A program made the translations under genes and the position numbers. DNA of 64,000 bases from Rhizobium sp. BT03 (GTDB taxonomy: Bacteria > Pseudomonadota > Alphaproteobacteria > Rhizobiales > Rhizobiaceae): positions 229,101 to 293,100 of the forward strand of contig NZ_CP125645.1 of assembly GCF_030053155.1 (NCBI RefSeq), written 5' to 3'. Within the stretch, counting starts at the first letter, position 1. Each line of letters begins with the position of its first letter. Under the pieces are notes generated by a model. It was not told the origin of the DNA, did no database searches, and worked only from the letters and a program-made list of their open reading frames with translations. Shown here in pieces: positions 10,159 through 32,945 of the stretch.

Positions 10159-10160
10159 GC

Positions 10161-11718: not shown

Positions 11719-11729
11719 CGGAAGGCCCT

Positions 11730-11843
11730 AGAGCACGATGCCGAAAAATGTGAGCGGTTTTCGGATGACATCATGCTTTAACCCTTTAATTTAGAACAGA
11801 ATTCAGATTTCAGGCCGGCCGGGCCGAAAATCATCCTGTTCTA
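11730..11843. repeat. RIME-like Rhizobium intergenic palindromic element (copy 1)
   Basis: Two consecutive imperfect hairpins are joined by a TTTAACCCTTT linker. The first contains CCGAAAA/TTTTCGG with GATG/CATC flanks; the second is bounded by TAGAACAG/CTGTTCTA and contains GATTT/AAATC around a GC-rich loop. This two-palindrome layout is familiar from the RIME elements scattered through Rhizobium genomes. It lies between the flippase and the export gene. A related element is at 61029-61131. Confidence 0.7.
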
Positions 11844-11911
11844 GCCGTTTATCCCGTGCTGGCGTTCGACCGCCTGCCGCAAGCTCGATTGCATCACATG
11901 CTTTTCGCGTA

Positions 11912-13800: not shown

Positions 13801-16800
13801 ATGTATCGCAACGCTCGCCGGTGGACTTCGCGCTCACTCCTGCTGGATTCGTTGGTTCCCCGATGGTTGACTGTCGGCGGAAAGGAAAGGCCGCGCAAGC
13901 CTGCCGGAAAGAACGGGGATAGTGCTCAACTCGCGGCAGCGGTGCAAACGGCTGATGGAAACAAGCAGGCCCTCCTCGTCGGCGATCCCCATAAGGAGGC
14001 TGCGCTCAACGAGCATGAGGCTGGGCAGAGCGCGGGCGTGAACGGCGACGCTGATGGTCGGGCCGACGACAGCCTCGTCGCGCCGCCCTTGCCTGACGCT
14101 TTCACAATCAATCGTGAAATCGGAGAGCGAAGCGGTGATAGAGCCGCGTCCGTACTGTCAGTTCATACGCCGGATTTTGCCCATGTCGAGCGGAACGCCA
14201 ACGGAGTTGCATTCGGGGCGGCATCACCCCTTTATCGCACCTACGCCGGAATGAACCTCATAGGCGACGATCCTTTGGCGCCGTATCTGCCGCAGGCGCC
14301 TACGCCGGCAGGCTCGGGGCACGATTCTGCCGCGGTAGTGGGCGAGCGTGCGCACTCCGGCAACGTCGTTATTCTCGAATCGAGCCCGTCAGCGCAGGCG
14401 AGCGCCCAGCATGCCGGAGCCAATTCACTGGCGTTTGGCATGCCCTTTGGCGTGTGCGGGTGCGGCTACTTTACCTCCCCCACGCGGATTCTCGATTGGG
14501 CCCATGGCGGCGCCATGCTCCAACAGGACGGTCAATTGGCGGGGACCAAGCTGACCGAGGGGCCGGACTATGTATCGGCGCTCAAGCGGGCCATCGGCGC
14601 CTCGGTCAGCGACCCGCTTCTCGATCGTAATCTGTCCCCTCTCTCGGGCTGGCGCGGCACCGCAAACTGGACAGAATCAACGGTCTTGGCCGGATCATTG
14701 CCAGGCGGTGGCGAGACCGGAACAGGCAACAGCACCTCCAAAGGTATCGGCATCCTTTCCGGCTCGGTAACGACGCCACCTTCGACGCAGCGGTCGCTGA
14801 CGACGCAAAATCTGGCGGCCGCAGCGGCGGCCAGCAACCCGATCGTGCTGGAAAATCAGAAACAGGGCAATCCAGAAAGCGAGTGGGGCATCGACGGTGC
14901 CGGCAGCACCAACATCGAGGGCTTTGCGACCGATATCAGTGTCGACAACGGCAAGACGATCAGCTTCAAGATCAATACGAATTCCACCAATTACCGGATC
15001 GATATATACCGGCTCGGCTATTACGGCGGCATGGGCGCCCGCAAGGTGGCGACCATGCAGCATACCGGATTGCAGACCCAGCCCAGTCCGCTGCGCAATG
15101 CCACAACCGGCACGGTGGACGCCGGCAACTGGGCCGTCTCGGCGTCCTGGACCGTACCTGATGATGCCGTCTCGGGCGTCTATATCGCCAAGCTCGTGCG
15201 TCAGGATGGCACCTCCGGCGAAAATCATATCCCGTTCATCGTGCGCGACGACGACAGTCACAGCGATATCGTCTTCCAAACCGCCGACGAGACCTGGCAG
15301 GCTTATAACGGCTGGGGTGGCGCAAACTTCTATGGCGGCAACGGTCCGGCGACGGGGCAGGGGGCGGGCCGCGCCTATGCGGTCAGCTACAACAGGCCGA
15401 TTGCGACCCGCGGCGGGGTGGGCACCTATGCCGGTCCGCAGGATTACCTGTTCGGCGCCGAATATGCGGGCATCTCCTGGCTGGAACAGAACGGCTACGA
15501 TGTTTCTTACATGTCGGGTGTCGACGTCGACCGCTATGGCAGCCTGTTGCTCAATCACAAAACCTATGTTGATGCCGGGCACGACGAATACTGGTCCGGA
15601 CAGCAGAGGACCAATGTCGAAGCCGCGCGCGATGCCGGCGTCAACCTGATGTTCTGGAGCGGCAACGAGGTCTATTGGCGCACCCGCTGGGGCAATGCCT
15701 ACAGCGCCGACGGCACACCTTATCGCACCCTGATCTCCTACAAGGAGACATGGTCGCCCAGCGCCAGCATCGACCCTTCCAACGAATGGACGGGCACCTT
15801 CCGCGATCCGCGTCTCAGCCCGCCTGCCATCGGCGGCGGAAACCCCGAAAACTCGCTGACCGGGCAGTTGTTCAAGGTCGACGATGTCGGCAGCAATCTT
15901 GCCGCGATCACGGTTAAATATGATGACGCCAACCTGCGCTTCTGGCGCAATACGAGCGTTGCCAATCTTCAGCCTGGCCAGACGGCAACGCTCACCAAGA
16001 ACTATCTAGGTTACGAATGGGACGAAGCAGTCGACAACGGCTTCGATCCGGCCGGCCTCGTCAAGCTGTCGTCGACGACGCTTCCGGTCAGCACCTACTT
16101 GCTCGACTACGGCAACACCACCGGCAATGCGACCTCGACCCACAATCTGACGCTTTATCGGGCGCCGAGCGGTGCGCTGGTATTCGGCGCCGGCACCGTC
16201 TACTGGGCCTGGGGCCTGAGCGACAATCACGACCTCCAGGCGACGCCGACGGACCCGCGCGTGCAGCAGGCGATGGTCAATCTGCTCGCCGACATGGGCA
16301 TTCAGCCTGGGACACTGCAATCCGGGCTCGTCGCGACAACCGCTTCGTCGGACCATACTGCGCCGACCTCGGTCATCACGGTGCCCGCCACGGCGACCGT
16401 AGGATCCACCGTGACGATTACCGGCACCGCTACCGATACCGGAGGCGGCGTCATCGCTGCGGTCGAGGTCTCCACCGATAACGGAGCGAGCTGGCATCCG
16501 GCGACAGGCGATGAGAACTGGACTTATACCTGGTCGCCGCAGACCGCGGGCACCTACACCATCCGATCGCGCGCAGTGGACGATAACGTCAACCTGGAAA
16601 CACCCTCGGCGGGGCGAACGGTCACCGTCAGCGGGCCGAATTACACCTCTCTCTTCGGTTCGGCGACACCGGCGGTCGTCAACACCAACGATAGCGCAGC
16701 CGTTGAACTCGGCGTCAAATTCCAGACCTCCGTGGCGGGCACGGTCACCGGCATTCGTTTCTACAAGGGCGACCTGGATACGGGCACGCATACCGGTTCT

Positions 16801-19800
16801 TTATGGTCGAGCACCGGTACGCGGCTTGCGACCCTCACCTTTACGAACGAGACTACCAGCGGCTGGCAGACTGCCTATTTCACCAGTCCAGTGGCTCTGA
16901 CGGTCGGACAAACCTACACCGCGTCCTACCATACGAATACCGGTCACTATTCGACGAGCACCAACTACTTCACCTCAAATGTGACCAGCGGTCCGCTGAC
17001 GGCACCGGCCAGCGGCAATGGCGTCTACCGCTATGGCAACAACAGCCTGTTCCCCAGCACCACCTTCCAGTCGACGAACTATTGGGTCGATGTGATGTTC
17101 ACGACACCGAGCTCGAACACGACGCCGACGGCGGTTGCCGATGCGGGGGATGCGACCGAGAAGGGCGGGGTGGCCAACGGTTCGGGCGGCGCGGTTGCCA
17201 GCGGCAACGTGCTGACCAACGACACCGATCCGAATGCCGGCGATACCAAGACCGTCACGGCCGTGGTCTTCGGCGCGACGTCGGGCACGCTGGGCTCGGC
17301 GCTCAACGGTACCTATGGCAGTCTCGTGCTCAATGCATCGGGCGCCTATACCTATACGATCAACGAGACCAATACCGCCGTCCAGGGGCTGCGGCAGTCG
17401 ACCAACACGCTGAGCGATGTCTTCAGCTACACGATGCGCGACAGCGCCGGCGCCACGGCCACGGCCAATCTGACCGTCACCATCCATGGTGCCAACGACG
17501 CGCCGGTGCTGGCCGTCCAGACGGCTGGTCAGAATGCCACCGTCGGCACGGCCTTCTCCTTCGCCGTTCCGACGACGACCTTCACCGATGTCGACAGCGG
17601 CGAGACGCTGACCTATTCGGCAACGGCCGCCGATGGCACGGCGCTGCCTGCCTGGCTGAGCTTCAATGCCACGACGCGGACCTTCTCCGGCACGCCGACG
17701 ACCGCTGGCACCTATGGCGTCAGGGTGACGGCGACGGATCTTGGCGGCCTTGCCGCCAATGAGACCTTCAACATCGCCGTGTCGACGCCCGGCAATACGC
17801 CGCCGACGGCAGTTGCCGATGCGGGGGATGCGACCGAGAAGGGCGGGGTGGCCAACGGTTCGGGCGGCGCGGTTGCCAGCGGCAACGTGCTGACCAACGA
17901 CACCGATCCGAATGCCGGCGATACCAAGACCGTCACGGCCGTGGTCTTCGGCGCGACGTCGGGCACGCTGGGCTCGGCGCTCAACGGTACCTATGGCAGT
18001 CTCGTGCTCAATGCATCGGGCGCCTATACCTATACGATCAACGAGACCAATACCGCCGTCCAGGGGCTGCGGCAGTCGACCAACACGCTGAGCGATGTCT
18101 TCAGCTACACGATGCGCGACAGCGCCGGCGCCACGGCCACGGCCAATCTGACCGTCACCATCCATGGTGCCAACGACGCGCCGGTGCTGGCCGTCCAGAC
18201 GGCTGGTCAGAATGCCACCGTCGGCACGGCCTTCTCCTTCGCCGTTCCGACGACGACCTTCACCGATGTCGACAGCGGCGAGACGCTGACCTATTCGGCA
18301 ACGGCCGCCGATGGCACGGCGCTGCCTGCCTGGCTGAGCTTCAATGCCACGACGCGGACCTTCTCCGGCACGCCGACGACCGCTGGCACCTATGGCGTCA
18401 GGGTGACGGCGACGGATCTTGGCGGCCTTGCCGCCAATGAGAACTTCAACATCACCGCCTCGGCGGCGGCGACGACCTACAGCCTGTTCAACGCCTCCAG
18501 CACGCCGGCCCAGACCAACCTCAATGATGGTCAGCAGCTCGAACTCGGCGTCAAGTTCCAGTCGAGCGTTGCCGGTGACGTGACCGGCATCAAGTTCTAC
18601 CGCAGCGCCAACGATAACGGCCAGAATGTCGTCGACCTGTGGACCACGACGGGCACCAAGCTCGCCACCGCCACCTTCGCCGGCACCACCGGGAGCGGCT
18701 GGCAGACGGTGAACTTCTCAACCCCCGTCACCATCGCCGCCAACACGATCTACGTCGCCTCCTATCACACGACAGGGGCCTACGTCGCGACCGACAATTT
18801 CTTTACGGCCGCCGTCACCAGCGGCCCGCTGACCGCGTCGGCCAGCGGCAACGGCGTATACACCTATGGCGGCTCCGCCACCGCAGGCATTTTCCCGAAT
18901 GCCACCTACGCTGCCGCCAATTACTATGCCGATGTGGTCTTCCGTCCGGCATCGACAGCGCCGAACACGACGCCGACGGCGGTTGCCGATGCGGGGGATG
19001 CGACCGAGAAGGGCGGGGTGGCCAACGGTTCTGGCGGCGTGGTTGCCAGCGGCAACGTGCTGACCAACGACACCGATCCGGATTCCGGCGATACCAAGAC
19101 CGTCACGGCCGTGGTCTTCGGCGCGACGTCGGGCACGCTGGGCTCGGCGCTCAACGGTACCTATGGCAGTCTCGTGCTCAATGCATCGGGCGCCTATACC
19201 TATACGATCAACGAGACCAATACCGCCGTCCAGGGGCTGCGGCAGTCGACCAACACGCTGAGCGATGTCTTCAGCTACACGATGCGCGACAGCGCCGGCG
19301 CCACGGCCACGGCCAATCTGACCGTCACCATCCATGGTGCCAACGACGCGCCGGTGCTGGCCGTCCAGACGGCTGGTCAGAATGCCACCGTCGGCACGGC
19401 CTTCTCCTTCGCCGTTCCGACGACGACCTTCACCGATGTCGACAGCGGCGAGACGCTGACCTATTCGGCAACGGCCGCCGATGGCACGGCGCTGCCTGCC
19501 TGGCTGAGCTTCAATGCCACGACGCGGACCTTCTCCGGCACGCCGACGACCGCTGGCACCTATGGCGTCAGGGTGACGGCGACGGATCTTGGCGGCCTTG
19601 CCGCCAATGAGACCTTCAACATCGCCGTGTCGACGCCCGGCAATACGCCGCCGACGGCAGTTGCCGATGCGGGGGATGCGACCGAGAAGGGCGGGGTGGC
19701 CAACGGTTCGGGCGGCGCGGTTGCCAGCGGCAACGTGCTGACCAACGACACCGATCCGAATGCCGGCGATACCAAGACCGTCACGGCCGTGGTCTTCGGC

Positions 19801-20823
19801 GCGACGTCGGGCACGCTGGGCTCGGCGCTCAACGGTACCTATGGCAGTCTCGTGCTCAATGCATCGGGCGCCTATACCTATACGATCAACGAGACCAATA
19901 CCGCCGTCCAGGGGCTGCGGCAGTCGACCAACACGCTGAGCGATGTCTTCAGCTACACGATGCGCGACAGCGCCGGCGCCACGGCCACGGCCAATCTGAC
20001 CGTCACCATCCATGGTGCCAACGACGCGCCGGTGCTGGCCGTCCAGACGGCTGGTCAGAATGCCACCGTCGGCACGGCCTTCTCCTTCGCCGTTCCGACG
20101 ACGACCTTCACCGATGTCGACAGCGGCGAGACGCTGACCTATTCGGCAACGGCCGCCGATGGCACGGCGCTGCCTGCCTGGCTGAGCTTCAATGCCACGA
20201 CGCGGACCTTCTCCGGCACGCCGACGACCGCTGGCACCTATGGCGTCAGGGTGACGGCGACGGATCTTGGCGGCCTTGCCGCCAATGAGAACTTCAACAT
20301 CACCGCCTCGGCGGCGGCGACGACCTACAGCCTGTTCAACGCCTCCAGCACGCCGGCCCAGACCAACCTCAATGATGGTCAGCAGCTCGAACTCGGCGTC
20401 AAGTTCCAGTCGAGCGTTGCCGGTGACGTGACCGGCATCAAGTTCTACCGCAGCGCCAACGATAACGGCCAGAATGTCGTCGACCTGTGGACCACGACGG
20501 GCACCAAGCTCGCCACCGCCACCTTCGCCGGCACCACCGGGAGCGGCTGGCAGACGGTGAACTTCTCAACCCCCGTCACCATCGCCGCCAACACGATCTA
20601 CGTCGCCTCCTATCACACCACCGGCGCTTACGTGGCAACTGACGGCTTCTTCGCCAGTGCCGTCACCAACGGTCCGTTGACGGCCCAATCAAGCGCGGTC
20701 GCCGGTGGCAACGGTGTCTATGCGTATGGCGGATCGGCCACGACAGGTCTCTTCCCGACCAACTCCTACGATTCATCGAATTACTATGCGGACGTGGTCT
20801 TCCGGCCGCAGCTCGTCGGGTGA
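13801..20823 (+). CDS. Giant modular protein with DMFase-like core, VCBS repeats and DUF4082 domains (probable type I secretion substrate)
   Basis: The protein is 2340 aa. Residues 1-340 are low in complexity. Residues ~345-845 resemble the large (beta) subunit of N,N-dimethylformamidase (opening with [15 protein letters not shown]; motifs GHDEYWS near 593 and FWSGNEVYW near 618). An Ig-like module covers ~847-940 and a first DUF4082 domain ~945-1100. Then come two 226-aa VCBS/cadherin-like units (~1114 and ~1340), a second DUF4082 (~1560), two more units (~1730 and ~1956) and a third DUF4082 (~2176-2340). There is no Sec signal and no RTX nonapeptide. The C-terminus (VVFRPQLVG) matches that of the second giant, consistent with C-terminal type I export. 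A GTPase gene follows after 95 bp. The function is unknown; adhesion or a secreted enzyme are options. Confidence 0.75.
17141..20820 (+). repeat. Near-identical tandem repeats inside the giant gene (678-bp units in a 1848-bp duplication)
   Basis: Four VCBS/cadherin-like units of 678 bp begin at 17141, 17819, 18989 and 19667. Units 1 and 2 plus a DUF4082 module form a block repeated after 1848 bp as units 3 and 4 plus a DUF4082 module. The DNA is nearly identical, including silent positions. The differences I see are a few changes at the start of unit 3 and divergence near the end of the final DUF4082 module. Confidence 0.9.
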
Positions 20824-20918
20824 AGCAAAGGTTAGGGACGGTTTCGAATGAGGCTGATACGACGCAAATGCTGGCCGCGGCGAGGGGCGCTCCGACCGTC
20901 CACATTCGGGGAATGCCG

Positions 20919-22103
20919 ATGAGCAGGATCGAGCGGCTCCCGGTAACCGTGCTGGCCGGCTTCCTCGGCGCCGGCAAGACGACGCTTCTCAGCCACGTCC
21001 TGAATAACCGTCAGGGCCTGCGGGTTGCTGTCATCGTCAACGATATGAGCGAAGTGAACATAGACGCCAGTCTCATTCGAGACGGCGGCTGCAACCTGTC
21101 GCAGACGACGGAGACATTGATCGAGCTCAGCAACGGCTGCATATGCTGCACCCTGCGCAACGACCTTCTGACGGAAGTACGGCGGCTGGCCGAAGAGCGG
21201 CGATACGACTATCTGTTGATCGAAGGCACCGGTATCGCCGAGCCGCGCCCCATTGCGGCAACCTTTTCCTTCCGCGACGAGAACGGCGTCTCGCTCGCCG
21301 ATTTTGCCAGGCTCGACACGATGGTCACCGTGGTCGACGCGGCAAACCTGTTAGCCGACTACAGCAGTGCCGATCTGCTTGCCGACCGCGGCCTGCAGCG
21401 GGACGGCGAGGATCGGCGCACCCTCATAGACCTGCTGGTGGATCAGATCGAGTTTGCCGATGTCGTCGTCATCAACAAGATCTCGGACGCGACAGATGAG
21501 GTCCGCGCTGAGGTGAGCAAGATCGTGACGTCTCTCAACCCGGATGCGCTCCAGGTGGAGACGGATTTCGGCAAGATATCGCTTCCGACCGTCCTCAATA
21601 CCGCCCTCTTCGATGAAGCAAAGGCAGCTGCGCATCCCCTGTGGCACAAGGAATTGTACAGCCCGGATGAGCATGTTCCTGAGACGGAGGAATACGGAGT
21701 CTCGAGTTTTGTCTATCGCACCAGGCGTCCCTTCGATCCCATGCGGTTTCGGGCATTCCTGGATGAGCCCTGGCCTGGAGTGCTGCGCGCCAAGGGCCAT
21801 TTCTGGCTTGCCACGCGCCCGCGTCATGTGGGCCTGATGTCGGCTGCCGGGATCCAGCGGCGCTGCGAGCCGATGGGGCTCTGGTGGGCCGCCGTGCCCC
21901 GGCAGGATTGGCCGAGCCATCAGCAGTTTCGTCAGCAGCTCGAGAGCCGCTGGGACAGCGCCTGGGGCGACCGTCGGCAGGAATTGGTTTTTATCGGCGT
22001 CGGCATGGACGAGACAGGTGTGCGCACCGCGCTGGACGGATGCCTCGCCAGCGCCGATCCGCGCGACTGGGCCACCCTCGAAGATCCGTTTCCGGCCTGG
22101 TAA
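20919..22103 (+). CDS. CobW/G3E-family (COG0523) GTPase, putative metallochaperone, copy 1
   Basis: The 394-aa protein has Walker [10 protein letters not shown] (residues ~14-22), the COG0523 metal-binding CxCC motif GCICCTLR (C74, C76, C77), the [10 protein letters not shown] switch region and a C-terminal CobW domain. The GTP-specificity element reads NKISD rather than NKxD. COG0523 proteins are GTP-dependent chaperones or inserters for zinc, cobalt, iron or nitrile-hydratase metal centres. I chose the ATG at 20919 (SD CGGGGA); an upstream GTG at 20820 overlaps the giant gene but has no SD. The gene is co-directional with the giant gene and its paralogue follows the second giant gene, so a role tied to these proteins is likely but unproven. 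Confidence 0.82.
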
Positions 22104-22135
22104 CACGGGGCGGCGCCGGACAACGCTCGAGTTAG

Positions 22136-22152
22136 CCGGCTGGGACAGCCGG
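22136..22152. terminator. Weak stem-loop downstream of GTPase copy 1
   Basis: A 6-bp CCGGCT/AGCCGG stem with a GGGAC loop lies 33 bases after the GTPase stop, with a modest T-rich stretch nearby. It may be a weak terminator before the second giant gene or only a processing site. The rest of the 215-bp gap shows no gene. Confidence 0.3.
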
Positions 22153-22318
22153 ACCGAACCAGCATTCCTTTTCCCGCCGTGAGGCACTCGGCAGGGAGCC
22201 GTCGGCAACTTTGGGGCCTTGTCGGCCGGTATGGGGTGAGGGTCATCATATTGGAGTAGGGGCTACCTCCCACATACCCCGGATTGCTGTCGTACGTTCC
22301 CTTCGCAAAGGTGCCAGA

Positions 22319-25300
22319 ATGAACGTCTTGCTACAGCGGTCGAAGGGCCGGCCGATGCGGAAGGGGACGCCGCTGATGCGGAGAATTCATGTGGGTAATC
22401 GTGAGTATCTGAGTACATTTGGTGGGGCGTTGAGTATCTGTCGTGCACCCTCTGCCTGGAGCGCAGTCCTTGCCTCCGCGACGGTCGTGTCGTCGAGAAG
22501 TACCGATGGTGCCCCGACCTTTGCCAATCAGGGCAGCGCCACCGTCCAATCCTCCTTCACCGGCACGGTCACATCTTCCCTGATATCTTCAGGCGACATG
22601 CAATCGTCTCCGGCACCGTCGACGGCGATGCCGGCGCCTGCTGCCGATGGCGGCGCGCAGGACACGTCCACGAAGACGGCGTCGGTCGCGTCGGTCTTCC
22701 AGACGCCTTCCTCCACATTGCAACGCACCGTGCTTGGCCCGGATCCGGCCGAGGAGGCTGCGGCACTGCCTGCCGCCCCCGCGCTTACGGGTGTTACCAG
22801 CGATATCGATACCGGCAGCGCCGAAACGGCGGCGCCGGTCAGTTCTTCCAGCAGTGTCGGCACAACTTCGTTGCGCCTTCAGGCCTCGATAGCATCCATG
22901 TCGGTGGAGCCGAGCCAGGACGTTTCTGCTGAGACTGCCGCGGCCCCGGCAGCACTGGCGGCGCCGGCGGCGGCCGCAGCGGCAGCAGTGACGCCCAACA
23001 AGATCGCGCTCGAAAACCTGAAGCAGGGCAACCCGATCAGCGAATGGGGCCTGGAGGGCGACGGCGGCGGCACCATCCAGGGCTTCGCCACCGAAATCAG
23101 CACCAATATCGGTCAGACGGTCGATTTCAAGATCGCCACGGATTCCACCCATTATCGCATCGATATCTACCGCATGGGTTATTATGGCGGGGCCGGCGCG
23201 CGCAAGGTCGACTCGATCGAGCAGCAGCTGACCACGGCGCAGATCCAGCCGCATCCGATCGTCGACATGTCGCTCGGCCTCATCGATTGCGGCAACTGGT
23301 CGGTTTCGGCCAGCTGGCAGATCCCTGCCGATGCCGTCTCCGGCGTCTACTTCGCCAAGCTGGTGCGCGAGGATGGCACCGAGGATGCCGGCATCATCCC
23401 CTTCGTCGTGCGCGACGATGCCTCGACCAGCGATATCGTCTTCCAGACGTCGGACACGACCTGGCAGGCCTATAATGCCTGGGGCGGCGCCAGCCTCTAT
23501 TACGGCGAAGTGCCCGTCGACCCGGCCGCCATGATCGGCTACCTGCCGCCGAACTGCAGCTGCGGCCTGACGGCCATCGGCCGCGCCTCGGCCGTCAGCT
23601 ATAATAGACCGATCATCACCAATACGAGCCCGATCGGCGGCTCGCACGATTACGTCTTCGGCGTCGAATCCTCTGCCATCTCGTGGCTGGAGCAGAACGG
23701 CTACGACGTTTCCTATATTTCCGGCGTCGATGCGGCGCGCAGCGGCACGCTGCTGCTCAACCACGATGCCTATCTCTCCGTCGGCCATGACGAATACTGG
23801 TCTGCCGAACAGCGCGCCAATGTCGAGGCGGCGCGCGATGCCGGTGTCAACCTCGCCTTCTGGAGCGGCAACGAGTGCTACTGGAAGGTCCGCTGGGAAA
23901 GCAGCATCGACGGCAGCGGCCAGGCCTACCGCACCATGGTCTGCTACAAGGAAACCTGGGGCACGAGCACGGATCCGAGCAACGTCGGCACCGGCACGTG
24001 GCGCGATCCGCGTTATGCCGATGCGGGGCAGGAGCCGGAGAATTCGCTGACCGGCACGATGTTCCAGGTGGACAGCTACCGCCAGGATACGATCTCCATC
24101 CCCTACGACTATTCCAACCTGCGCTTCTGGCGTAACACCGATGTCGCCGAGCTGCAGGAGGGTGATACCTACAATCTGGTGCAGAACCTGCTCGGCTACG
24201 AATGGGATTCCGACGTCGAGAACGGCTTCCGCCCGGACGGGCTGATCAACCTGTCGCTCTCCTCCATCGCTGTGAGCACCTATCTGCGTGATTACGGCAC
24301 GACGGTCGGCGATGCGGTGGCGACCCATAGCCTCACCATGTACCGGGCGGAAAGCGGCGCGCTGGTCTTCGGCGCCGGCACCGTCTTCTGGTCCTGGGGG
24401 CTGAGTGACAATCATCAGGGTCCGGCCACGTCGACCGATCGCAACGTCCAGCAGGCGATGGTCAACATGTTCGCGGACATGGGCATCCAGCCGACGACGC
24501 TGGATGCGAGCCTGATCCTCGCGACCCAATCGACCGACACGCTGAAGCCGACCTCGTCGATCAGCTCGCCGATCGTCGGCGCAAGCTTCGTCGAAGGGCA
24601 GCACGTGACGATATCAGGCACGGCGCAGGATTTCGGCGGCGGCATCATTGCCGGCGTCGAGGTTTCCACCGATGGCGGCCAGCACTGGTTCAAGGCCACC
24701 GGCCGAGAGAGCTGGAGCTATAACTGGGTCGTGCAGGCAAGCGGCACCTATACGATCCTGTCGCGCGCCGTCGACGACAGCGTCAACATGGAGGCGCCAT
24801 CGGCCGGCAAGCAGGTCACCGTCACCCTGCCGGGAACGCAAGGCCTCTGGACCTTGGCGGAGAAACCGACTGTCGAAATGGCGATCGATCCCAATTCCGT
24901 CGAGCTCGGCCTGCGCTTCCAGGCGACGACGGCAGGCTATGTGGAAGGCATCCGCTTCTACAAGGGCTTCCACGATATCGGCGACCATGTCGTCAGCCTC
25001 TGGAGAGCCGACGGAACTTTGCTGGCAACGGGTGTCTCGGTCGGCGAGTCGCTCTCCGGCTGGCAAACGGTGATCTTCTCCAGCCCGATCCAGATTGCCG
25101 CCGGCACGACCTATGTGGCCTCCTATCACACCGACGGTTTCTATTCGGCCACCGATAATTATTTCGGCAGCACCTATGCCAGTGGCGCGCTGAAGGCCGT
25201 CGACGGCGGCGGCGTCTACGCTTATGGCGACAATGCCGGCACATTCCCCGGCCAGAGCCCCGGCACCGGCACCAACTACTGGGTCGATGTGGTCTTCGAT

Positions 25301-27661
25301 GCCGGGCCCAACAGCGCGCCGGTTGCGACCGACGATGCCGGGCTGACCATCACCCGCAACGACAGCGTCGTCATCTCGATCGCCTCGCTCATCGGAAACG
25401 ATACGGATCCCAACGGCGATGCGATGACGATTTCGGCCGTCGGCAATGCCGTCAACGGCACGGTAACGCTCAACAAGCAGAACGGCACCGTCATCTTCAC
25501 GCCGACCAACGATTATTCGGGGCCGGCAAGCTTCAGCTACACGCTGTCGGACGGGCGCGGCGGCACGGACCAGGGCAATGTCAGCCTCACCGTAAACCAG
25601 GGCCCTGCCGGGGAAACACTGTTTACCTCGAGCGAAGGGCCGACGGGCGCAAGTTATAACGAGGGCCAGTCGCTGGAACTCGGCATGCGGTTCTCCGCTT
25701 CGTCGAGCGGCATGGTGACCGGCGTTCGCTTCTACAAGGCATCAGGCGATACCGGCCCGCATACCGGCTCGCTGTGGACGGCGGACGGCACACTGGTCGC
25801 GACCGTCACTTTCGCCGACAGCGGATCGCTGAGCGGCTGGCAGACTGCAACATTCTCGAACCCGGTGCATATCCTAGCCGGCACGACCTATGTCGCCTCC
25901 TACCACACGACCGACTCCTATGTGGCAACGGCAAACTATTTCACATCAGCCCATAGCAATGGTTCGCTGACGGCGCTTGCCGGCAGCAACGGCGTCTTTG
26001 CCGAGGGCACCGGTTTTCCGACCTCCAGCTACCAGTCGTCGAATTACTGGGTGGATGTCGTCTACAACCAGACGAGCAACGTGCTGCCGGTCGCCGCCAA
26101 TGACAATGGCTACACGACCTATTCCAGCACGGCGCTGTCGATTGCCGCAGCCAGCCTGCTTGCCAACGATACCGATGCCGATGGCGACCTGCTCAGCATC
26201 ACCGGCGTCAATGGTGCGGCCAACGGAACGGTGACCTTCAACAGCCAGACCAAGTCGGTCACGTTCACCCCGACGGCCGGTTATACGGGTGCGGCAAGCT
26301 TCTCCTATTCGATCTCGGACGGATTCGGCGGCACGGCATCCGCAACGGTCAGCCTCAATGTGGCTGCACCACCCGCGGGCGGCCCGACGTCAAGCCTGTT
26401 CACCGGCGCAGACACGTCGGGGGTTGCCGCCGCCAATGATCCCAATTCGGTCGAACTCGGCGTCAAGTTCATCGCTTCCGCCGGCGGTCAGATCACCGGG
26501 CTCACCTATTACAGGAGCGCCCAGGATACCGGCGCGCATGTCGGCTCGCTCTGGACGGCGGGTGGCCAGCTTCTGGCCCAGGCGACCTTCATCAACGAGA
26601 CGGCGAGCGGCTGGCAGACGGTTTCCTTCACCCAGCCGATCAATGTGACCGCCGGCGCCACCTATGTGGCGAGCTACCATTCGAACGGCTTCTATTCCGC
26701 AACGGCGAACTACTTCACGACGGATCATACGAACGGTGCGCTGACGGCGCCATCGAGCACGACGAGCGGCGGCAACGGCCTTTATGCCTATGGCACGAGC
26801 AGCCTGTTCCCGACCGCTTCCTACAATGCGAGCAATTACTGGGTCGACGTGGTCTATCAGCAGGGCGGCGCGCAGAATGCGGTTCCGGTCGCCGCCAATG
26901 ACAGCGGCTTTACGACCAATAGCGGCACGCCGATCACCATCCAGGCCTCGGCACTCCTGGCAAACGATACCGACGGCGATGGCGATGCGCTTGTCGTCAC
27001 CGGCGTCAGTGGCGCGGTCAACGGCTCGGTCGCCTACGATGCCCAGGCCCAGACCGTGACCTTCACGCCGACGGCAGGCTATTCGGGACCGGCAAGCTTC
27101 AGCTACGCGATATCGGACGGCAAGGGCGGCACGGCCTCGGCGCAGGTCGCGCTCACCATCAACAACCCGGCTGCAGGACCGGAGCAGAACCTCTTTGCAG
27201 CAAACGCGACGCCCTCGGTCGTCTCGGTCGCCGACAACCAACCGGTCAATCTCGGCATGAAATTCCAGGCCGATACGTCAGGCTGGATCACCGGCATCCG
27301 CTTCTACAAGGGAGCAGACAATACCGGCCCGCACAACGGCTATCTCTGGACCGCATCCGGCACGCTGCTCGGCAGCGTCACCTTCAACAACGAGACGGCC
27401 AGCGGCTGGCAGACTGCGCAGCTCACCCAGCAGATCGCGATCCAGGCGGATACGACCTACGTCGTTTCCTACTCGAGCAACGGCAACTATTCGGCATCAG
27501 GCAATTACTTTGCCAGCGACGTGACTAACGGCGATCTGAAGGCGCCCGGCGGCAGCAACGGCGTCTATGCCTATGGAGCGGGCGGATTGTTCCCGACAGC
27601 CAGCTATAACAGCACGAACTACTATGTTGATGTGGCGTTCAAACCACAGCTCGCAGCGTAA
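22319..27661 (+). CDS. Second giant modular protein with DMFase-like core, four DUF4082 and three cadherin-like domains
   Basis: The protein is about 1780 aa if started at the ATG at 22319, which follows an AAAGGTG site (a longer reading from 22211 is possible). After an Ala/Ser/Thr-rich N-terminus, residues ~227-728 match the dimethylformamidase-like core of the first giant (LENLKQGNPISEWGLEG; GHDEYWS near 489; FWSGNECYW near 514). An Ig-like module (~730-835) and DUF4082 domains at ~840, ~1099, ~1357 and ~1622 follow, separated by three cadherin-like modules with NDTDPNGD or NDTDGDGD calcium-type loops. Unlike the first giant, these repeats are diverged at DNA level. It ends DVAFKPQLAA, like its paralogue. 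It is probably exported by the downstream type I system; the biochemical role is unknown. Confidence 0.75.
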   Translation: MNVLLQRSKGRPMRKGTPLMRRIHVGNREYLSTFGGALSICRAPSAWSAVLASATVVSSRSTDGAPTFANQGSATVQSSFTGTVTSSLISSGDMQSSPAPSTAMPAPAADGGAQDTSTKTASVASVFQTPSSTLQRTVLGPDPAEEAAALPAAPALTGVTSDIDTGSAETAAPVSSSSSVGTTSLRLQASIASMSVEPSQDVSAETAAAPAALAAPAAAAAAAVTPNKIALENLKQGNPISEWGLEGDGGGTIQGFATEISTNIGQTVDFKIATDSTHYRIDIYRMGYYGGAGARKVDSIEQQLTTAQIQPHPIVDMSLGLIDCGNWSVSASWQIPADAVSGVYFAKLVREDGTEDAGIIPFVVRDDASTSDIVFQTSDTTWQAYNAWGGASLYYGEVPVDPAAMIGYLPPNCSCGLTAIGRASAVSYNRPIITNTSPIGGSHDYVFGVESSAISWLEQNGYDVSYISGVDAARSGTLLLNHDAYLSVGHDEYWSAEQRANVEAARDAGVNLAFWSGNECYWKVRWESSIDGSGQAYRTMVCYKETWGTSTDPSNVGTGTWRDPRYADAGQEPENSLTGTMFQVDSYRQDTISIPYDYSNLRFWRNTDVAELQEGDTYNLVQNLLGYEWDSDVENGFRPDGLINLSLSSIAVSTYLRDYGTTVGDAVATHSLTMYRAESGALVFGAGTVFWSWGLSDNHQGPATSTDRNVQQAMVNMFADMGIQPTTLDASLILATQSTDTLKPTSSISSPIVGASFVEGQHVTISGTAQDFGGGIIAGVEVSTDGGQHWFKATGRESWSYNWVVQASGTYTILSRAVDDSVNMEAPSAGKQVTVTLPGTQGLWTLAEKPTVEMAIDPNSVELGLRFQATTAGYVEGIRFYKGFHDIGDHVVSLWRADGTLLATGVSVGESLSGWQTVIFSSPIQIAAGTTYVASYHTDGFYSATDNYFGSTYASGALKAVDGGGVYAYGDNAGTFPGQSPGTGTNYWVDVVFDAGPNSAPVATDDAGLTITRNDSVVISIASLIGNDTDPNGDAMTISAVGNAVNGTVTLNKQNGTVIFTPTNDYSGPASFSYTLSDGRGGTDQGNVSLTVNQGPAGETLFTSSEGPTGASYNEGQSLELGMRFSASSSGMVTGVRFYKASGDTGPHTGSLWTADGTLVATVTFADSGSLSGWQTATFSNPVHILAGTTYVASYHTTDSYVATANYFTSAHSNGSLTALAGSNGVFAEGTGFPTSSYQSSNYWVDVVYNQTSNVLPVAANDNGYTTYSSTALSIAAASLLANDTDADGDLLSITGVNGAANGTVTFNSQTKSVTFTPTAGYTGAASFSYSISDGFGGTASATVSLNVAAPPAGGPTSSLFTGADTSGVAAANDPNSVELGVKFIASAGGQITGLTYYRSAQDTGAHVGSLWTAGGQLLAQATFINETASGWQTVSFTQPINVTAGATYVASYHSNGFYSATANYFTTDHTNGALTAPSSTTSGGNGLYAYGTSSLFPTASYNASNYWVDVVYQQGGAQNAVPVAANDSGFTTNSGTPITIQASALLANDTDGDGDALVVTGVSGAVNGSVAYDAQAQTVTFTPTAGYSGPASFSYAISDGKGGTASAQVALTINNPAAGPEQNLFAANATPSVVSVADNQPVNLGMKFQADTSGWITGIRFYKGADNTGPHNGYLWTASGTLLGSVTFNNETASGWQTAQLTQQIAIQADTTYVVSYSSNGNYSASGNYFASDVTNGDLKAPGGSNGVYAYGAGGLFPTASYNSTNYYVDVAFKPQLAA

Positions 27662-27710
27662 AGCCCGCGAGGATGCAAGGCCAAGCATGCTGTAAAGAGT
27701 GAGAGTTTCG

Positions 27711-28943
27711 ATGATGGGTGCAGACAACAGATTGCCCGTAACGGTTCTCGCCGGGTTTCTCGGCGCCGGCAAGACGACTGTCCTCAATCATGTCCTGAGC
27801 AATCGGGAGGGCCGCCGGGTTGCCGTCATCGTCAACGATATGAGCGAGGTCAACATCGATGCGGAGCTCGTGCGCGAGGGGGGAGCAGATCTCTCGCGCA
27901 CCGACGAGACGCTGGTAGAGCTTACCAATGGATGCATCTGCTGCACCTTGCGCGACGATCTCCTGAGCGAAGTGCGCCGGCTCGCAGCTGCGGGCCGTTT
28001 CGACTATCTGCTGATCGAGGGCACCGGCATTGCCGAGCCGCTGCCTGTTGCCGCGACCTTCTCCTTCCGCGACGAAAGCGGGGCGGCCCTCTGCGACGTG
28101 GCGCGTCTCGACACGATGGTCTGCGTCGTCGATGCGGTCAATCTTCTCACAGACTACCAGAGCGCCGAGTTCCTTGCCGATCGCGGCGAAAGGCGTGACG
28201 GGGATGATGAGCGCAAGCTCGTGGAACTGCTCGTCGAGCAGATCGAATTTTCCGATGTCGTCATCATCAACAAGGCAGGCGACGTGCCGTGCGCCGACCT
28301 TGCCGAGGTTCGCCGGGTCGTCGCGGCGCTCAATCCGGAAGCTCGGGTCATCGAGGCGGTCTTCGGCCAGGTGCCGCTTGGGGCGATCCTGGATACCGGC
28401 CTCTTCAGCGAGGCGAAGGCCGCCCGCCATCCGCTCTGGCACAAGGAACTCTTCGGCTGGGGCGATCATGTGCCGGAGACCGAGGAATACGGCATAAGAA
28501 GCTTCGTCTATCGCAGCCGCCGGCCCTTCCATCCCCTGAGGCTCAAGGATTTCCTCGACCGGAAATGGGCGGGCCTCATCCGCGCAAAGGGTCATTTCTG
28601 GCTGGCGACGAGGCCTGATGAGATCGGCCTTCTGTCGATTGCCGGCACCCAGTGCCGGATCGAGACCAGGGGCTACTGGTGGGCCTCGGTGCCGCGGGTG
28701 CAATGGCCGCGCTTTCCGCAGTTCCGCCAGCTCATCGACCGGCATTGGGACGATGTCTGGGGAGACCGCCGTCAGGAACTCGTCTTCATCGGTTCCGGCT
28801 TCGACGAGGAAGCGATCCGCGCTGCTCTCGGTTATTGCCTGATCGGAGAGGAGACGGGTTTCGATCCGCAGACCGCCGTCGGCATTCGCGATCCGTTTCC
28901 GGCCTGGCAGCACGGACATATCCCTGCGCATTCAAATAGTTAG
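27711..28943 (+). CDS. CobW/G3E-family (COG0523) GTPase, putative metallochaperone, copy 2
   Basis: The protein, about 410 aa, is a close paralogue of the GTPase at 20919-22103. It has Walker [10 protein letters not shown], the CxCC motif in [24 protein letters not shown] and a C-terminal CobW domain; the specificity element is NKAGD. The start could be ATG 27711, ATG 27714 or a GTG at 27699; a GAGAG site favours 27711. It begins 49 bp after the second giant gene, repeating the giant-then-GTPase order seen at 13801-22103, which points to duplication of a two-gene module. No His-rich metal-storage stretch is present. The metal and client protein are unknown. Confidence 0.82.
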
Positions 28944-29009
28944 AGTGTTCCAAGGAACGCAAGACGCCCTGAGTGAAGACGTTTTGATTATCAACCGGAG
29001 GAGAGAACA

Positions 29010-29318
29010 ATGAGCAACGAACTTTATGCAGACGGCATCGGCGAAATCACCATTACGGGAACGATCGTGCGCATCGACCTGATGTCGCTTTCGGCAACCG
29101 ATCGTGACGACAACAACAACCCGAAGCCGGTCTTCCGCCAGCGCATCATCATGCCTGTCGATGCTTTCGCCAATGCGGTGGATCTGATGCAGAAGGCGCT
29201 CGGCGGGTTGGTCGAAGCGGGTGCGGTCCGTCGTATCGGCGATATGTCGGCGGCGGCGGCTGCCGATATCCAGTCGGCGCCGGCCGGCGCTTCGAACGCT
29301 TCGCCGAACTTCAACTGA
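29010..29318 (+). CDS. Small protein of unknown function next to the secretion genes
   Basis: The 102-aa protein has a very strong ribosome binding site (GGAGGAGAG) before the ATG at 29010. It predicts as beta strands followed by a helix, with an Ala/Ser/Asn-rich tail, no signal peptide and no membrane segment. The layout (two strands, then R-x-R-I-x-M-P and a helix with repeated Leu) loosely recalls DUF3467-type proteins, but I would not assign the family. It lies between the second GTPase and the type I secretion ABC transporter on the same strand, so it may be an accessory chaperone or regulator of secretion. This is inference from position only. Confidence 0.65.
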   Translation: MSNELYADGIGEITITGTIVRIDLMSLSATDRDDNNNPKPVFRQRIIMPVDAFANAVDLMQKALGGLVEAGAVRRIGDMSAAAAADIQSAPAGASNASPNFN

Positions 29319-29361
29319 CAAAACGAATATTGACTCGGTCTCTTATTGTTTCGGGTGGGCC

Positions 29362-31506
29362 ATGAGTGGTTTTCTGCATACCAACCTGCACTGTCTGGCG
29401 CTCGTCGCGCGTCATCACGGCGTTGATCTCGCGCCTGAGCGATTGCAGCATGATTATGCCGTCGGCAACGATCCCGTTGCCGTACGGCAGCTGCTGCGGA
29501 TGGCCAAGGATGCCGGCCTCAGAGCCCGGCATCTGACGCTCGACTGGCGAAGCCTGTTTCAGCTCGGCGAGGCCTTTCCGGTGCTCGCGGAACTGACGAA
29601 CGGCAATTGGGTGGTGATCGCCGGCGCTGTCGGCAGCGGCGAGGATGAGAGAATTCGTGTTCTCGATCCGCTGGCGTCCCGCGCCGAAGTGATGATGCTC
29701 AGTGAAGAACAATTCGCCAAGGCCTGGCTCGGATCGGTCGTCCTGCTGAAGCGCAACTATCGCATGTCCGACGAAGACCGGCCCTTCGGCTTCCGCTGGT
29801 TCGTCCCCGAAATCATCAAGCAGCGCAGCTTCTTCCGCGATGTCGCGCTTGCCGCCTTCGTGCTCTATGGTCTCGGGCTGACGACGCCGATGTTCTTTCA
29901 GCTCGTCATCGACAAAGTGCTCGTGCATCAGAGCTATGCGACGCTGACGGTCCTGACGGTCGGTATCGCGGTGGCGCTCGTCTTCGACGCGACCTTCAGC
30001 TTCCTGCGCCGTTATCTGCTGCTCTACGCCACCAACAGGATCGACATCCGGGTGGCGACGCGCACCTTCGGCCATCTGCTCAACCTGCCGATCGCACTCT
30101 TCGAGCAGGCGTCTGCCGGCGTTCTCGTCAAGCATATGCAACAGACGGGGCGCATTCGCGAATTCCTGACCGGCCGGCTGTTCCTGACGCTTCTCGACGG
30201 CGTCTCGCTCTTCGTCTTCGTGCCGATCCTGCTTCTCTACAGTGTCAAGCTGACGCTCGTGGTGCTCGGCTTCGCAGCGCTCGTCGGGCTGGTGGTGATG
30301 ATGCTCGTCGGCCCGTTCCAGCGCCGCCTGCAGGCGCTCTACCAGGCCGAAGGCGACCGGCAGGCCTTGCTTGTCGAAACCGTGCACGGCATGCGCACAG
30401 TGAAATCGCTGGCGCTGGAGCCGCGCCAGCGCAAGGTATGGGACGATTATTCGGCCCAGTCGATCTCGGTGCGCTTCCGGGTCGAGAAGATCTCCACCAT
30501 CGCTCAGTCGCTGACGGGGCTTCTGGAAAAGCTGATGAGTGTGGCGATCATCGGCCTGGGCGCACTCGATGTCTTCAGCGGTGCGATGACGATCGGCGCG
30601 CTGGTCGCCTTCAACATGCTCGCCGGCCGCGTCTCCGGGCCGCTGGTGCAAATCGTCACCATGGTGCACGAATATCAGGAAGTGGCGCTCTCGGTGCGCA
30701 TGCTCGGTGAGATCATGAATCAGCGGCCGGAGCAGGCCGGACGCGGCCGCGGTGTGCGGCCGCATCTGCATGGCCGCATCGAATTCGACCGCGTCTCCTT
30801 CCGCTATGCGCCGGATGCGGCACCTGCGCTCGACAATGTCTCCTTCGCCGTTCCGGCAGGCTCGGTCTTCGGCGTAGTCGGCAAGAGCGGCTCGGGCAAG
30901 ACGACGATCACGCGGCTCATCCAGGGGCTCTATCAGAGCCAGGAGGGGCTGGTGCGCATGGACGGCTATGACAGCCGCGAGATTGACCTCGTGCACTTGA
31001 GAACCAGCATCGGCGTCGTGCTGCAGGACAATTTCCTGTTTCGCGGCTCGGTTCGCGACAATATCGCCGCCGCCAAGCCCGATGCCAGCATCGAGGAAAT
31101 CATGGAGGTCGCCCGCATCGCCGGCGCCGAGGAGTTCATCGAGCGCCTGCCGCGCGGCTTCGACACGATGCTGGAGGAAAATGGCTCGAACCTTTCCGGC
31201 GGCCAGAAGCAGCGGTTGGCCATCGCGCGCGCGCTGATCACCGATCCGAAGCTGTTGATCTTCGACGAGGCGACGAGCGCGCTCGACCCTGACAGCGAGG
31301 CGATCATCCGCGAGAATCTGAGCCGCATCGCTGCCGGCCGCACCGTCATCATCGTCTCGCACCGGCTTTCGACGCTCGTCGATGCCGATGCCATTCTCGT
31401 CGTCGACCGTGGCAAGGTCGCCGATATCGGCCGGCACGATCAGCTTGTATCGCGCTGCATGACTTATCGCCACCTGTGGGCCCAGCAAATGAGGCAGGTC
31501 GCATGA
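29362..31506 (+). CDS. Type I secretion ABC transporter with C39-like (non-catalytic) N-terminal domain
   Basis: The 714-aa protein has an N-terminal peptidase-C39-like domain (~1-130) in which the catalytic-Cys position is occupied by Thr (HTNLHCLALVARHHG), so it should be a docking CLD rather than a protease, as in HlyB. Six membrane helices follow (~155-430), then an ATPase with Walker A GKSGSGKTT (~507), signature LSGGQKQR (~611) and Walker B LLIFDEATSALD. The start at 29362 was chosen because the CLD begins there; the longer opening overlaps the preceding gene in another frame. It would energise export of the two giant proteins. Its stop overlaps the membrane-fusion gene start (31503-31506). 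Confidence 0.88.
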   Translation: MSGFLHTNLHCLALVARHHGVDLAPERLQHDYAVGNDPVAVRQLLRMAKDAGLRARHLTLDWRSLFQLGEAFPVLAELTNGNWVVIAGAVGSGEDERIRVLDPLASRAEVMMLSEEQFAKAWLGSVVLLKRNYRMSDEDRPFGFRWFVPEIIKQRSFFRDVALAAFVLYGLGLTTPMFFQLVIDKVLVHQSYATLTVLTVGIAVALVFDATFSFLRRYLLLYATNRIDIRVATRTFGHLLNLPIALFEQASAGVLVKHMQQTGRIREFLTGRLFLTLLDGVSLFVFVPILLLYSVKLTLVVLGFAALVGLVVMMLVGPFQRRLQALYQAEGDRQALLVETVHGMRTVKSLALEPRQRKVWDDYSAQSISVRFRVEKISTIAQSLTGLLEKLMSVAIIGLGALDVFSGAMTIGALVAFNMLAGRVSGPLVQIVTMVHEYQEVALSVRMLGEIMNQRPEQAGRGRGVRPHLHGRIEFDRVSFRYAPDAAPALDNVSFAVPAGSVFGVVGKSGSGKTTITRLIQGLYQSQEGLVRMDGYDSREIDLVHLRTSIGVVLQDNFLFRGSVRDNIAAAKPDASIEEIMEVARIAGAEEFIERLPRGFDTMLEENGSNLSGGQKQRLAIARALITDPKLLIFDEATSALDPDSEAIIRENLSRIAAGRTVIIVSHRLSTLVDADAILVVDRGKVADIGRHDQLVSRCMTYRHLWAQQMRQVA

Positions 31507-32945
31507 ACGCGCACGCGAGAAAACCCAGCGAAAACCTGCCGGTCCCTTCAGATAAGCGCTCCTCCGATCAGGGGCCTTCTGACAAGGGAAGACAACTGGC
31601 CGCCCGGCCGCCGCTGCCGCCGGCGATCGCGGAATTCCAGTCCGATGCCGTCGAGCTCGAGGAACGCGCGCCGCCGCGTGTGGCGCGCATGACGCTCTAC
31701 TGTGTGACGGCGCTGCTTGCCGCGGCGATCACCTGGGCCTCGGTCTCCTCGATTGACGAGGTGGTGATCGCGCCCGGAAAGCTCGTCACCACCCAGCCGA
31801 CCATCGTCGTCCAGCCACTCGAAACCTCGATCATCCGCACGATCGAGGTGAAGGCCGGCGAAGTGGTGCATGCCGGGCAGACGCTCGCGACCCTCGACGC
31901 CACTTTCAGCCAGGCCGATGTCGACCAGCAGCAGGCGAAATTCTCCGCGCTCGACGCCCAGGTAAAACGCATCGAGGCGGAGCTTGCCGGCGACGATTAT
32001 ACCAAGATGGCGGGAGATACGCCCGACCAGATGCTGCAGGCGCAGCTCTTCGGTCAGCGGCGGGCCTTCTACGTGGCGCAGCTGCAGAATTTCGACCAGC
32101 AGATCGCCGGCCAGTCGGCCGCTCTTGCGGCAAGCAGGAACCAGGAGGCGGTGCTCAACGACAGGCGCGAAGGGCTCTCGCAGATCGAGGCAGCGCGGGA
32201 GCGGCTCTATGACAACCAGAGCGGCTCGCTGATTACGCTGCTCGGCTCGCGCGACGCCCGCCTCGACGTGGAATCCGACCTGACCGCCGTCCGTGGCAAG
32301 GCCGACGAGGCCGCCCACTCCTATGCCAAGCTCCGAGCCGACCGCCAGGCCTTCATCGAGGATTTCCGCCGCGCCGCCATGGAGCAGCTGGTGGAATTGC
32401 GCGGCCAGCGCGACATGGCTGACGAGGAACTGAAAAAGATGGAGCTGCGCCGCAACATGGTGGCGCTGACGGCACCCGCCGATGCCGTCGTGCTGGATCT
32501 CGCCCAGCGCTCCATCGGATCGGTGGTGCGCGAAGCCGAACCGATCGTCACCCTGGTGCCGATCAACGTGCCGCTCGAAGCCGAAGTTTCGATCAACACG
32601 CGCGATATCGGCCGCGTTGCCGTCGGCAAGGAAGCGCGCATCAAGCTCGACGCCTATCCCTTCCAGAAATACGGCACGGCCTCCGGCACGGTGCGCACCA
32701 TCAGTGAGGACACGTTCCTGACCGGCCAGCAGGACCAGACCGCCACCCCCAGCCAGCCGGCCGCGCCCTTTTTCAAGGCCCGCGTCCTGCTCGCCGATAC
32801 GAGGCTGAATGCTTCGGATGTGCCGGTGCGGTTGCTTCCGGGCATGACCGTGTCCACGGAAATCAAGGTCGGCAAGCGCACGGTGATCTCCTATTTCCTG
32901 TATCCGTTGCTGCGGGGGCTGGATAACGCAATACGCGAACCGTAG
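31503..32945 (+). CDS. HlyD-family type I secretion membrane-fusion protein
   Basis: The 480-aa protein has a cytoplasmic N-terminal tail rich in Ser, Lys and Pro, one membrane helix (~63-80), a lipoyl/barrel-sandwich half (VVIAPGKLVTTQPTIVVQPLE), a long coiled coil (~145-330) and the returning half with a beta-barrel domain (VPLEAEVSINTRDIGRVAVG). This is the usual HlyD/PrtE order. ATGA coupling to the ABC gene indicates that both parts are made together. It bridges the inner-membrane ABC protein to an outer-membrane TolC-type channel, which is not encoded in this window. A weak inverted repeat (CGCGAAC/GTTCGCG) around the stop codon may be a terminator. Confidence 0.88.
   Translation: MNAHARKPSENLPVPSDKRSSDQGPSDKGRQLAARPPLPPAIAEFQSDAVELEERAPPRVARMTLYCVTALLAAAITWASVSSIDEVVIAPGKLVTTQPTIVVQPLETSIIRTIEVKAGEVVHAGQTLATLDATFSQADVDQQQAKFSALDAQVKRIEAELAGDDYTKMAGDTPDQMLQAQLFGQRRAFYVAQLQNFDQQIAGQSAALAASRNQEAVLNDRREGLSQIEAARERLYDNQSGSLITLLGSRDARLDVESDLTAVRGKADEAAHSYAKLRADRQAFIEDFRRAAMEQLVELRGQRDMADEELKKMELRRNMVALTAPADAVVLDLAQRSIGSVVREAEPIVTLVPINVPLEAEVSINTRDIGRVAVGKEARIKLDAYPFQKYGTASGTVRTISEDTFLTGQQDQTATPSQPAAPFFKARVLLADTRLNASDVPVRLLPGMTVSTEIKVGKRTVISYFLYPLLRGLDNAIREP

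Follow-up and report, generated by a model that had tools for sequence, protein, structure and literature searches.

Giant proteins with a Cys-X-Cys motif and their accompanying COG0523 GTPases in Rhizobium: a putative client-dedicated metal step before type I export

The stretch of DNA analysed here, hereafter the window, consists of 64,000 nucleotides (nt) of Rhizobium sp. BT03 (NCBI RefSeq assembly GCF_030053155.1, contig NZ_CP125645.1, positions 229,101 to 293,100 of the forward strand) and lies on contig C6 of a 6.9 Mb genome. Between positions 13801 and 32945, seven reading frames encode, in order, a giant protein (giant1), a GTPase of the G3E/COG0523 family (GTPase1), a second giant (giant2), a second GTPase (GTPase2), a protein of 102 amino acids (aa), an HlyB-type ABC protein and an HlyD protein (Table 1). 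The present work concerns the association of such GTPases with the giants, and in particular with a Cys-X-Cys (CxC) motif of the latter. Rhizobium plasmids carry loci up to 92.7% identical to this one. A preliminary description of the window had laid out the same seven genes, the giants as paralogues with a dimethylformamidase-like core and DUF4082 domains, and the GTPases as paralogues of the CobW/G3E type. All the genes were found at their places. An alignment of the two giants, in which 942 columns span the core, shows 52% identity, and the GTPases, in each of which cobW and CobW_C are above their cut-offs, are 64% identical.

Several starts given by the open reading frame (ORF) tool were judged too early when compared with the annotation of Rhizobium johnstonii 3841, from which the starts of giant2, GTPase1, ABC and HlyD were estimated. 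The annotated copy of 3841 is compact: about 90 nt follow giant1, the intervals from giant2 through GTPase2 and the 102-aa gene to ABC measure tens of nt, and ABC overlaps HlyD.

Table 1. Features of the giant-GTPase-exporter locus in the window. DUF4082 copies are Pfam matches.
Feature	Position	Strand	Remarks
giant1 (type B)	13801..20823	+	2340 aa; DMFA2_C core 14836-16638; three DUF4082; four He_PIG/cadherin-like repeats
VCGCG motif of giant1	14452..14466	+	Cys219, Cys221; N-terminal linker
GTPase1	20913..22103	+	ZigA-like G3E/COG0523, CICC; frame open from 20820, start (~20913) inferred
giant2 (type A)	22319..27661	+	about 1780 aa; DMFA2_C core 22997-24790; four DUF4082; frame open from 22211, start (~22319) inferred
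NCSCG motif of giant2	23552..23566	+	Cys449, Cys451 (ORF numbering); between QAYN and SYNRP
GTPase2	27699..28943	+	ZigA-like G3E/COG0523, CICC; domain and family-profile matches
102-aa protein	29010..29318	+	no family assigned; accompanies ABC/HlyD pair
HlyB-type ABC exporter with C39-like domain	29362..31506	+	bltDE locus in 3841; start inferred
HlyD-type periplasmic adaptor	31503..32945	+	start inferred

Both giants belong to the DMFA2_C family (PF20254), for which giant1 scores 327 bits and giant2 343 bits against a gathering cut-off of 27. In giant1, the motif cysteines are the sole two cysteines of the 2340 aa. Its translation also displays near-identical repeat blocks, several hundred residues each, of the He_PIG/cadherin and DUF4082 kinds. 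No RTX model of Pfam or NCBIfam matched either giant at E 1e-3, so that they do not qualify as RTX substrates by this measure; among the PDB hits of giant2 is a chain called RTX protein, aligned with one of its cadherin-like repeats.

The two GTPases match the ZigA model (NF038288) over their full length, with 560 and 569 bits, and do not reach its cut-off of 600, which the chromosomal ZigA copy of this genome exceeds with 604 bits. The CICC motif was present in all 60 giant-linked GTPases of the tree reported below, which places them in the G3E/COG0523 family. The P-loop was itself a condition for extracting the GTPases of this tree, and three frames were set aside for it. As to the exporter genes, the ABC protein contains Peptidase_C39-like, membrane and ATPase domains and scores 685 bits with TIGR01846, under the cut-off of 726, and the HlyD protein scores 316 bits with TIGR01843 (cut-off 209). 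On these matches the pair is classed as a predicted type I exporter. Neither Pfam nor NCBIfam gave a hit for the 102-aa protein at E 1e-3.

In order to follow the gene order, genome contigs were scanned with the giant2 core, which gave 402 encoding stretches, and the best 80 of them were kept. The order giant-GTPase-102aa-ABC-HlyD was found in 74 of these 80 loci and also on pRL9 of R. johnstonii 3841, and chance is thereby ruled out as its origin. The misses were L056, L076 and L077 (contig ends), L094, L103 and L117. The giant-GTPase module is widespread in Hyphomicrobiales: the loci with the five-gene order include Rhizobium, Mesorhizobium, Ensifer/Sinorhizobium, Bosea, Kaistia, Aminobacter and Lutibaculum, and this gene order was met again in one genome outside the taxonomic order (G1113). 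Whole genomes were also sampled in overlapping draws, and those with the core numbered 29 of 297 from the family, 24 of 397 from the order, 4 of 385 from the class and 9 of 398 from the phylum.

The CxC motif was searched from 180 residues before the start of the core to 500 residues after it. In type A giants it reads PPNCSCG (with NCGCG, NCNCG, NCHCS, NCGCA and similar variants) and is carried by a loop before SYNRP. In type B giants VCGCGY or ICGCGY is located in the N-terminal linker, and the giant of locus L183 carries YCHCGQ at a third position. Three giant lineages thus display three CxC positions, and a GTPase accompanies each of them.

The GTPase was scored as intact when its tblastn match exceeded 350 bits. 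Among 60 giants from the family, order and class draws, 38 combined CxC with an intact adjacent GTPase, 15 had neither, and none had an intact GTPase without CxC. In the remaining ones, CxC stood beside a broken GTPase once (L128) and with the GTPase elsewhere in the genome once (G287), and five giants were cut by contig ends (two with and three without CxC). The preliminary description had taken giant and GTPase for a conserved unit, an idea that would have suffered if giants mostly occurred without GTPases. With 38 giants adjoining an intact GTPase, 15 without any and 7 in which it was broken, moved or cut, this part of it holds.

The same partition was observed with 137 distinct cores from outside the window. 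Both traits were found in 108 and neither in 17, and again no intact GTPase occurred without CxC. In each of the 108 loci scored as intact, the GTPase frame is open and encodes both P-loop and CICC. Among the others, L241 has no CxC and a decayed GTPase, and L103, from the same genome as G287, has CxC and no adjacent GTPase. Two were scored as broken, namely L128 and L056, whose GTPase runs off the contig. Eight more were cut by contig ends (five with and three without CxC), which makes nine of 137 counting L056. G657, whose core is in two pieces, was counted once.

Plasmid records were fetched after this rule had been formed, and six loci came from the best 60 of 172 matches. L242 (Sinorhizobium sp. 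B11) carries VCGCG with a GTPase and L245 carries NCSCG with a GTPase. In L240 (Microvirga ossetica), the giant is free of cysteine, the exporter genes are present and the GTPase is absent. In L241 (Rhizobium sp. T1473), WGCG replaces CGCG, the first cysteine being changed into tryptophan, and the GTPase is a decayed fragment. The two actinobacterial loci, L243 and L244, lack a GTPase in the stretch as well as CxC in the core or linker; L244 is truncated near a transposase. These two, from Arthrobacter and Paenarthrobacter plasmids, encode 50% identical DMFA2_C proteins amid copper resistance genes, their neighbours including CopC, a cation diffusion facilitator and ArsR, with a multicopper oxidase in L243.

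The presence of the GTPase with CxC, and its usual absence or decay without CxC, suggest a GTPase that, ahead of export, either loads a metal at this motif or guards it there. We propose that a client-dedicated GTPase derived from ZigA metalates or guards the CxC of its giant before the latter is exported, a proposal that we hold to be probable, if only modestly so. Each giant would have its own G3E/COG0523 GTPase, the target of which would be the CxC of that giant. In the cytoplasm, the CICC site of the GTPase would hand a metal ion to the CxC thiolates, or would hold these thiolates protected, and this step would precede the export of the giant chain. The 102-aa, ABC and HlyD genes would constitute the exporter, a separate part standing beside giants with or without CxC. 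What the sequences show directly is the gene order, the trees, the joint occurrence of CxC and GTPase, the lack of a Zur site and one case of joint decay; the contact between GTPase and giant, the movement of metal and the export via the adjacent ABC protein are predictions. G3E/COG0523 GTPases are known to bind zinc, and from the family zinc would be the most likely metal; iron would be suggested by analogy with nitrile hydratase.

To evaluate how far common descent accounts for the concordance, both traits were placed on a core tree with 126 tips, on which they agree at 124. This tree holds 126 of the 128 uncut cores, broken GTPases being scored as absent; L132 and L187, filtered out for a stop inside the aligned piece, are 31-32% identical and have neither CxC nor GTPase. 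When the GTPase trait was simulated with fitted rates and CxC kept as observed, agreement averaged 80 tips, with a maximum of 122, and none of 5000 simulations reached 124.

Several observations weigh against the proposal of a CxC-directed GTPase. By parsimony, CxC changed only 4 times on the tree and the GTPase trait only 5 times, and most of the 108 positive loci are close relatives, so that the independent events are few. In L128 (type B, genome G209), VCGCG is intact and two frames share the GTPase between them, perhaps through recent decay or through an error of assembly. Genomes G287 and G1376 have their CxC giant at one place and the GTPase at another. The Arthrobacter giant of L243 contains CPC motifs in its repeats, outside the range searched, and its locus has no GTPase. 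In the type B linkers of L127 and L129, VCGCGYF is replaced by CCG[G/S]CGYINCP, with four cysteines, and no GTPase is linked. Finally, two AlphaFold models of the core with the CxC loop, with pLDDT of 43 and 42, were unusable.

The small number of changes and the close relationship of many loci would also be expected if the giant and a zinc-homeostasis GTPase were held together by historical linkage or joint transfer, with CxC as an unrelated lineage marker. This is unlikely in our estimation, since the motif occupies three different positions, motif and GTPase have decayed jointly in T1473 and none of the 5000 simulations was as concordant.

A different client for the GTPase would be the dimethylformamidase-like site of the giants. 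Dimethylformamidase, an amidase with a small subunit, binds Fe(III) by two tyrosines and one glutamate. In the passages of PMC7686228 describing the Paracoccus dimethylformamidase, the iron ligands are Y399, Y440 and E521, and H519, N547 and E657 are given as further residues. The giants hold residues similar to the Tyr, Tyr, His, Glu, Asn and Glu of this enzyme, the spacing 519-521-547-657 corresponding to 264-266-292-402 in the giant2 core (H-E-N-E). The putative tyrosines were assigned from spacing because a profile search of PDB did not match dimethylformamidase itself; the acylases 8i5a and 8huy were matched. In the 18 CxC-less giants above 40% identity (3 giants below this value being excluded from the motif counts), QAYN, SYNRP, GHDEYW and GN were retained in 18/18 and EWD in 16/18, and none of these giants, three of them contig-cut, was seen with an intact GTPase. 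The 116 CxC giants retain the same motifs (QAYN 115, SYNRP 115, GHDEYW 116, GN 116, EWD 106). As the site persists without the GTPase, it seems not to need it; this candidate was rejected, and metalation of the iron site by the GTPase appears improbable. Regarding the preliminary description, a metal role of the GTPase before export fits the present results, and the dimethylformamidase-like site is probably not its target.

The third possibility is that the GTPase acts on the exporter or on the 102-aa protein, where it might, for example, gate type I secretion in response to metal or GTP. The GTPase does lie between the giant and the exporter in the 74 loci of conserved order, and in G287 and G1376 it accompanies the exporter at a distance from the giant. 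Against this, exporter genes stand without GTPase beside the CxC-less giants of L129, L185 and L240, and GTPase-giant pairs occur without a close exporter relative within the stretch in L171, L178, L179, L183 and L242. An unlinked exporter could exist elsewhere in the genomes lacking a nearby close relative, and L178 and L179 hold on the other strand a distant ABC/HlyD pair, 25-28% identical to that of the window, which may serve their giants. In L123, the exporter genes have a type B giant without CxC on one side and a type A pair on the other. Since exporter and GTPase occur separately, the GTPase was rejected as a partner of the secretion genes, an action on the exporter or the 102-aa protein is held to be quite unlikely, and the coupling of the GTPases to type I secretion, as first described for the window, is weakened.

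CxC-like motifs are also used for disulfides in exported proteins. CxC could accordingly be an extracytoplasmic disulfide or anchoring motif, with the GTPase lending zinc to keep its thiols reduced. By sequence alone, this is inseparable from the proposed CxC-directed GTPase, which already includes a guard role; as an explanation of its own we regard it as very improbable. The variant of L127 and L129 indicates that cysteine clusters at the linker site are not always paired with a GTPase, and a different metal or disulfide site may there have replaced CxC.

Returning to the proposal of a GTPase directed at CxC, no Sec signal was seen by eye in the listed CxC giants, which agrees with a cytoplasmic step; the CxC-less giant of L172 shows one. 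The termini of the giants present further regularities. The N-terminus of type A giants (window ~22376-22426) has a leader-like start, e.g. MRRIHVGNREYLSTFGG or MLRIHIKSDQYLSVSGG, ending in GG, which we take to recall double-glycine leaders; with a strict pattern, this leader was recognised in 37 of the 93 type A giants. At the C-terminus, FRPQL followed by a few residues was found in 44/91 type A and 19/20 type B complete ends, and is a possible export signal of the CxC giants.

In order to trace the origin of the pairs, trees were built on selections of 83 GTPases and 78 giant cores. The giant-linked GTPases, except that of L183, form one clade (support 0.943), which nests beside ZigA genes carrying Zur-like boxes. 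GTPase1 and its orthologues are sister to the GTPases of family f35 (support 0.978), in whose genomes the GTPase sits upstream of the giant, and the giant1 core falls in one clade with the f35 giants (support 0.997). Both trees therefore indicate that giant1/GTPase1 and giant2/GTPase2 are old pairs, which on this evidence became neighbours in the R. leguminosarum/etli group. The preliminary description had read the repeated order as the duplication of a functional module; this is not borne out, and a local duplication was rejected since both trees pair giant1/GTPase1 with distant genomes. Furthermore, the GTPase type matches the giant type even across changed gene order. In L216, a GTPase of the linked clade lies with the 102aa-ABC-HlyD genes, apart from its giant. 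The GTPase of L183, whose long branch falls beyond the linked clade, may represent a separate association.

Just upstream of the chromosomal ZigA copy lies a near palindrome, GTAATGATATAAC, presumably a Zur box, and this copy adjoins a gene with a perfect GTTATNNNATAAC, which by eye is zinc-binding-protein-like. A Zur-like palindrome with at most one mismatch was found upstream of 15 of 24 unlinked ZigA genes versus 0 of 112 giant-linked genes, and in 8 of 2000 shuffled stretches of 320 nt serving as control. One of the 24, that of L216, is the displaced gene of the linked clade and has no palindrome. The near palindrome is likewise absent at the window genes, and Zur control of the window locus was rejected. 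The best explanation of these sequence data is that the giant-linked GTPase derives from a Zur-controlled ZigA and is itself without a Zur site. A diagnostic column of the GTPase domain near CICC contains Met in 23/23 unlinked and Leu in 58/60 linked proteins. Among 39 genomes searched at E 1e-100, no ZigA-like gene was found in G088 (the genome of L129), G297, G392, G434 and G559, whose giants are CxC-less, nor in G209, which has the broken GTPase; five other genomes with CxC-less relatives, G029, G461, G541, G651 and G657, have one unlinked ZigA-like copy each.

The closest working model among systems already described is the Fe-type nitrile hydratase together with the COG0523 protein that activates it. 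Passages of PMC2770081 and PMC7193024 report that this activator is a COG0523 GTPase whose CXCC is needed, and that the metal is bound by three cysteines and two backbone amides. As here, nitrile hydratase with Nha3/P44K/P47K involves a COG0523 GTPase with CXCC encoded after a single client. Unlike nitrile hydratase, the client would be a giant predicted to be exported, with two cysteines in CxC, and the GTPases match the ZigA model. When the seven genes and 20 frames around them were scanned with Pfam, no gene for nitrile hydratase was found. ZigA/YciC share with the present GTPases the full-length NF038288 match, and differ by the score below 600 bits, the missing Zur-like box and the linkage to one client. 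The enzymes of PF20254 (dimethylformamidase and N-acetyl-(R)-beta-phenylalanine acylase) share the core domain and the active-site-like residues, but the core described here forms part of a large protein made of repeats, DUF4082 arrays among them. Non-RTX giant adhesins exported by HlyB/HlyD resemble the present system by the exporter genes, the cadherin/VCBS-like repeats and the lack of a Sec signal by eye, and are distinguished from it by the DUF4082 C-terminus and the dedicated GTPase found here.

The giants and the exporter have already been published. In the portions of PMC2275737 that bear on this locus, Krehenbrink and Downie (2008) named the exporter BltDE (pRL90164/165), predicted the giants pRL90159 and pRL90161 as its cargo and guessed a bacteriocin-like role, which a passage of a 2024 review repeats (PMC10925705). 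The BltDE locus of R. leguminosarum 3841 is the same locus, the tags having been matched by order and size. The words 'GTPase' and 'dimethylformamidase' are absent from the main text of PMC2275737, a text that we did not search for CxC. Among the open-licence matches listed, judged by title and start of abstract, no report joined such GTPases to these giants, and none was found of the pairing of GTPase and CxC.

Directly upstream of the locus, on both strands (window 1196-13372), lies a polysaccharide cluster with glycosyltransferases, DegT aminotransferases, a flippase and a Wza-like export protein, part of which is likewise upstream in 3841 pRL9. Downstream are DUF6030 and thiamine genes, and a TPP riboswitch (RF00059, 68 bits) occupies window 38015-38146 on the minus strand, upstream of a thiC-type gene.

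According to the family survey PMC2770081, in the part that treats them, the targets of most COG0523 GTPases are 'not obvious'. Here, genome comparison points to one COG0523 client and to two cysteines within this client. A bolder version would be a metal-gated export checkpoint, in which the GTPase bridges CICC and CxC by a shared metal and holds the giant until its release is permitted by the metal and by the GTP state. We consider this rather unlikely. If it were true, the exported giant would carry a metal-thiolate site installed in the cytoplasm (zinc, or an iron/cobalt claw similar to that of nitrile hydratase). To our knowledge it would then be the first GTPase metallochaperone for a type I secretion cargo, and CxC would be a transplantable client tag. 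Type I cargo is generally taken to travel unfolded. The CxC-directed GTPase proposed here would, if confirmed, offer one of the rare examples in which a metal is inserted before a protein leaves by the type I route.

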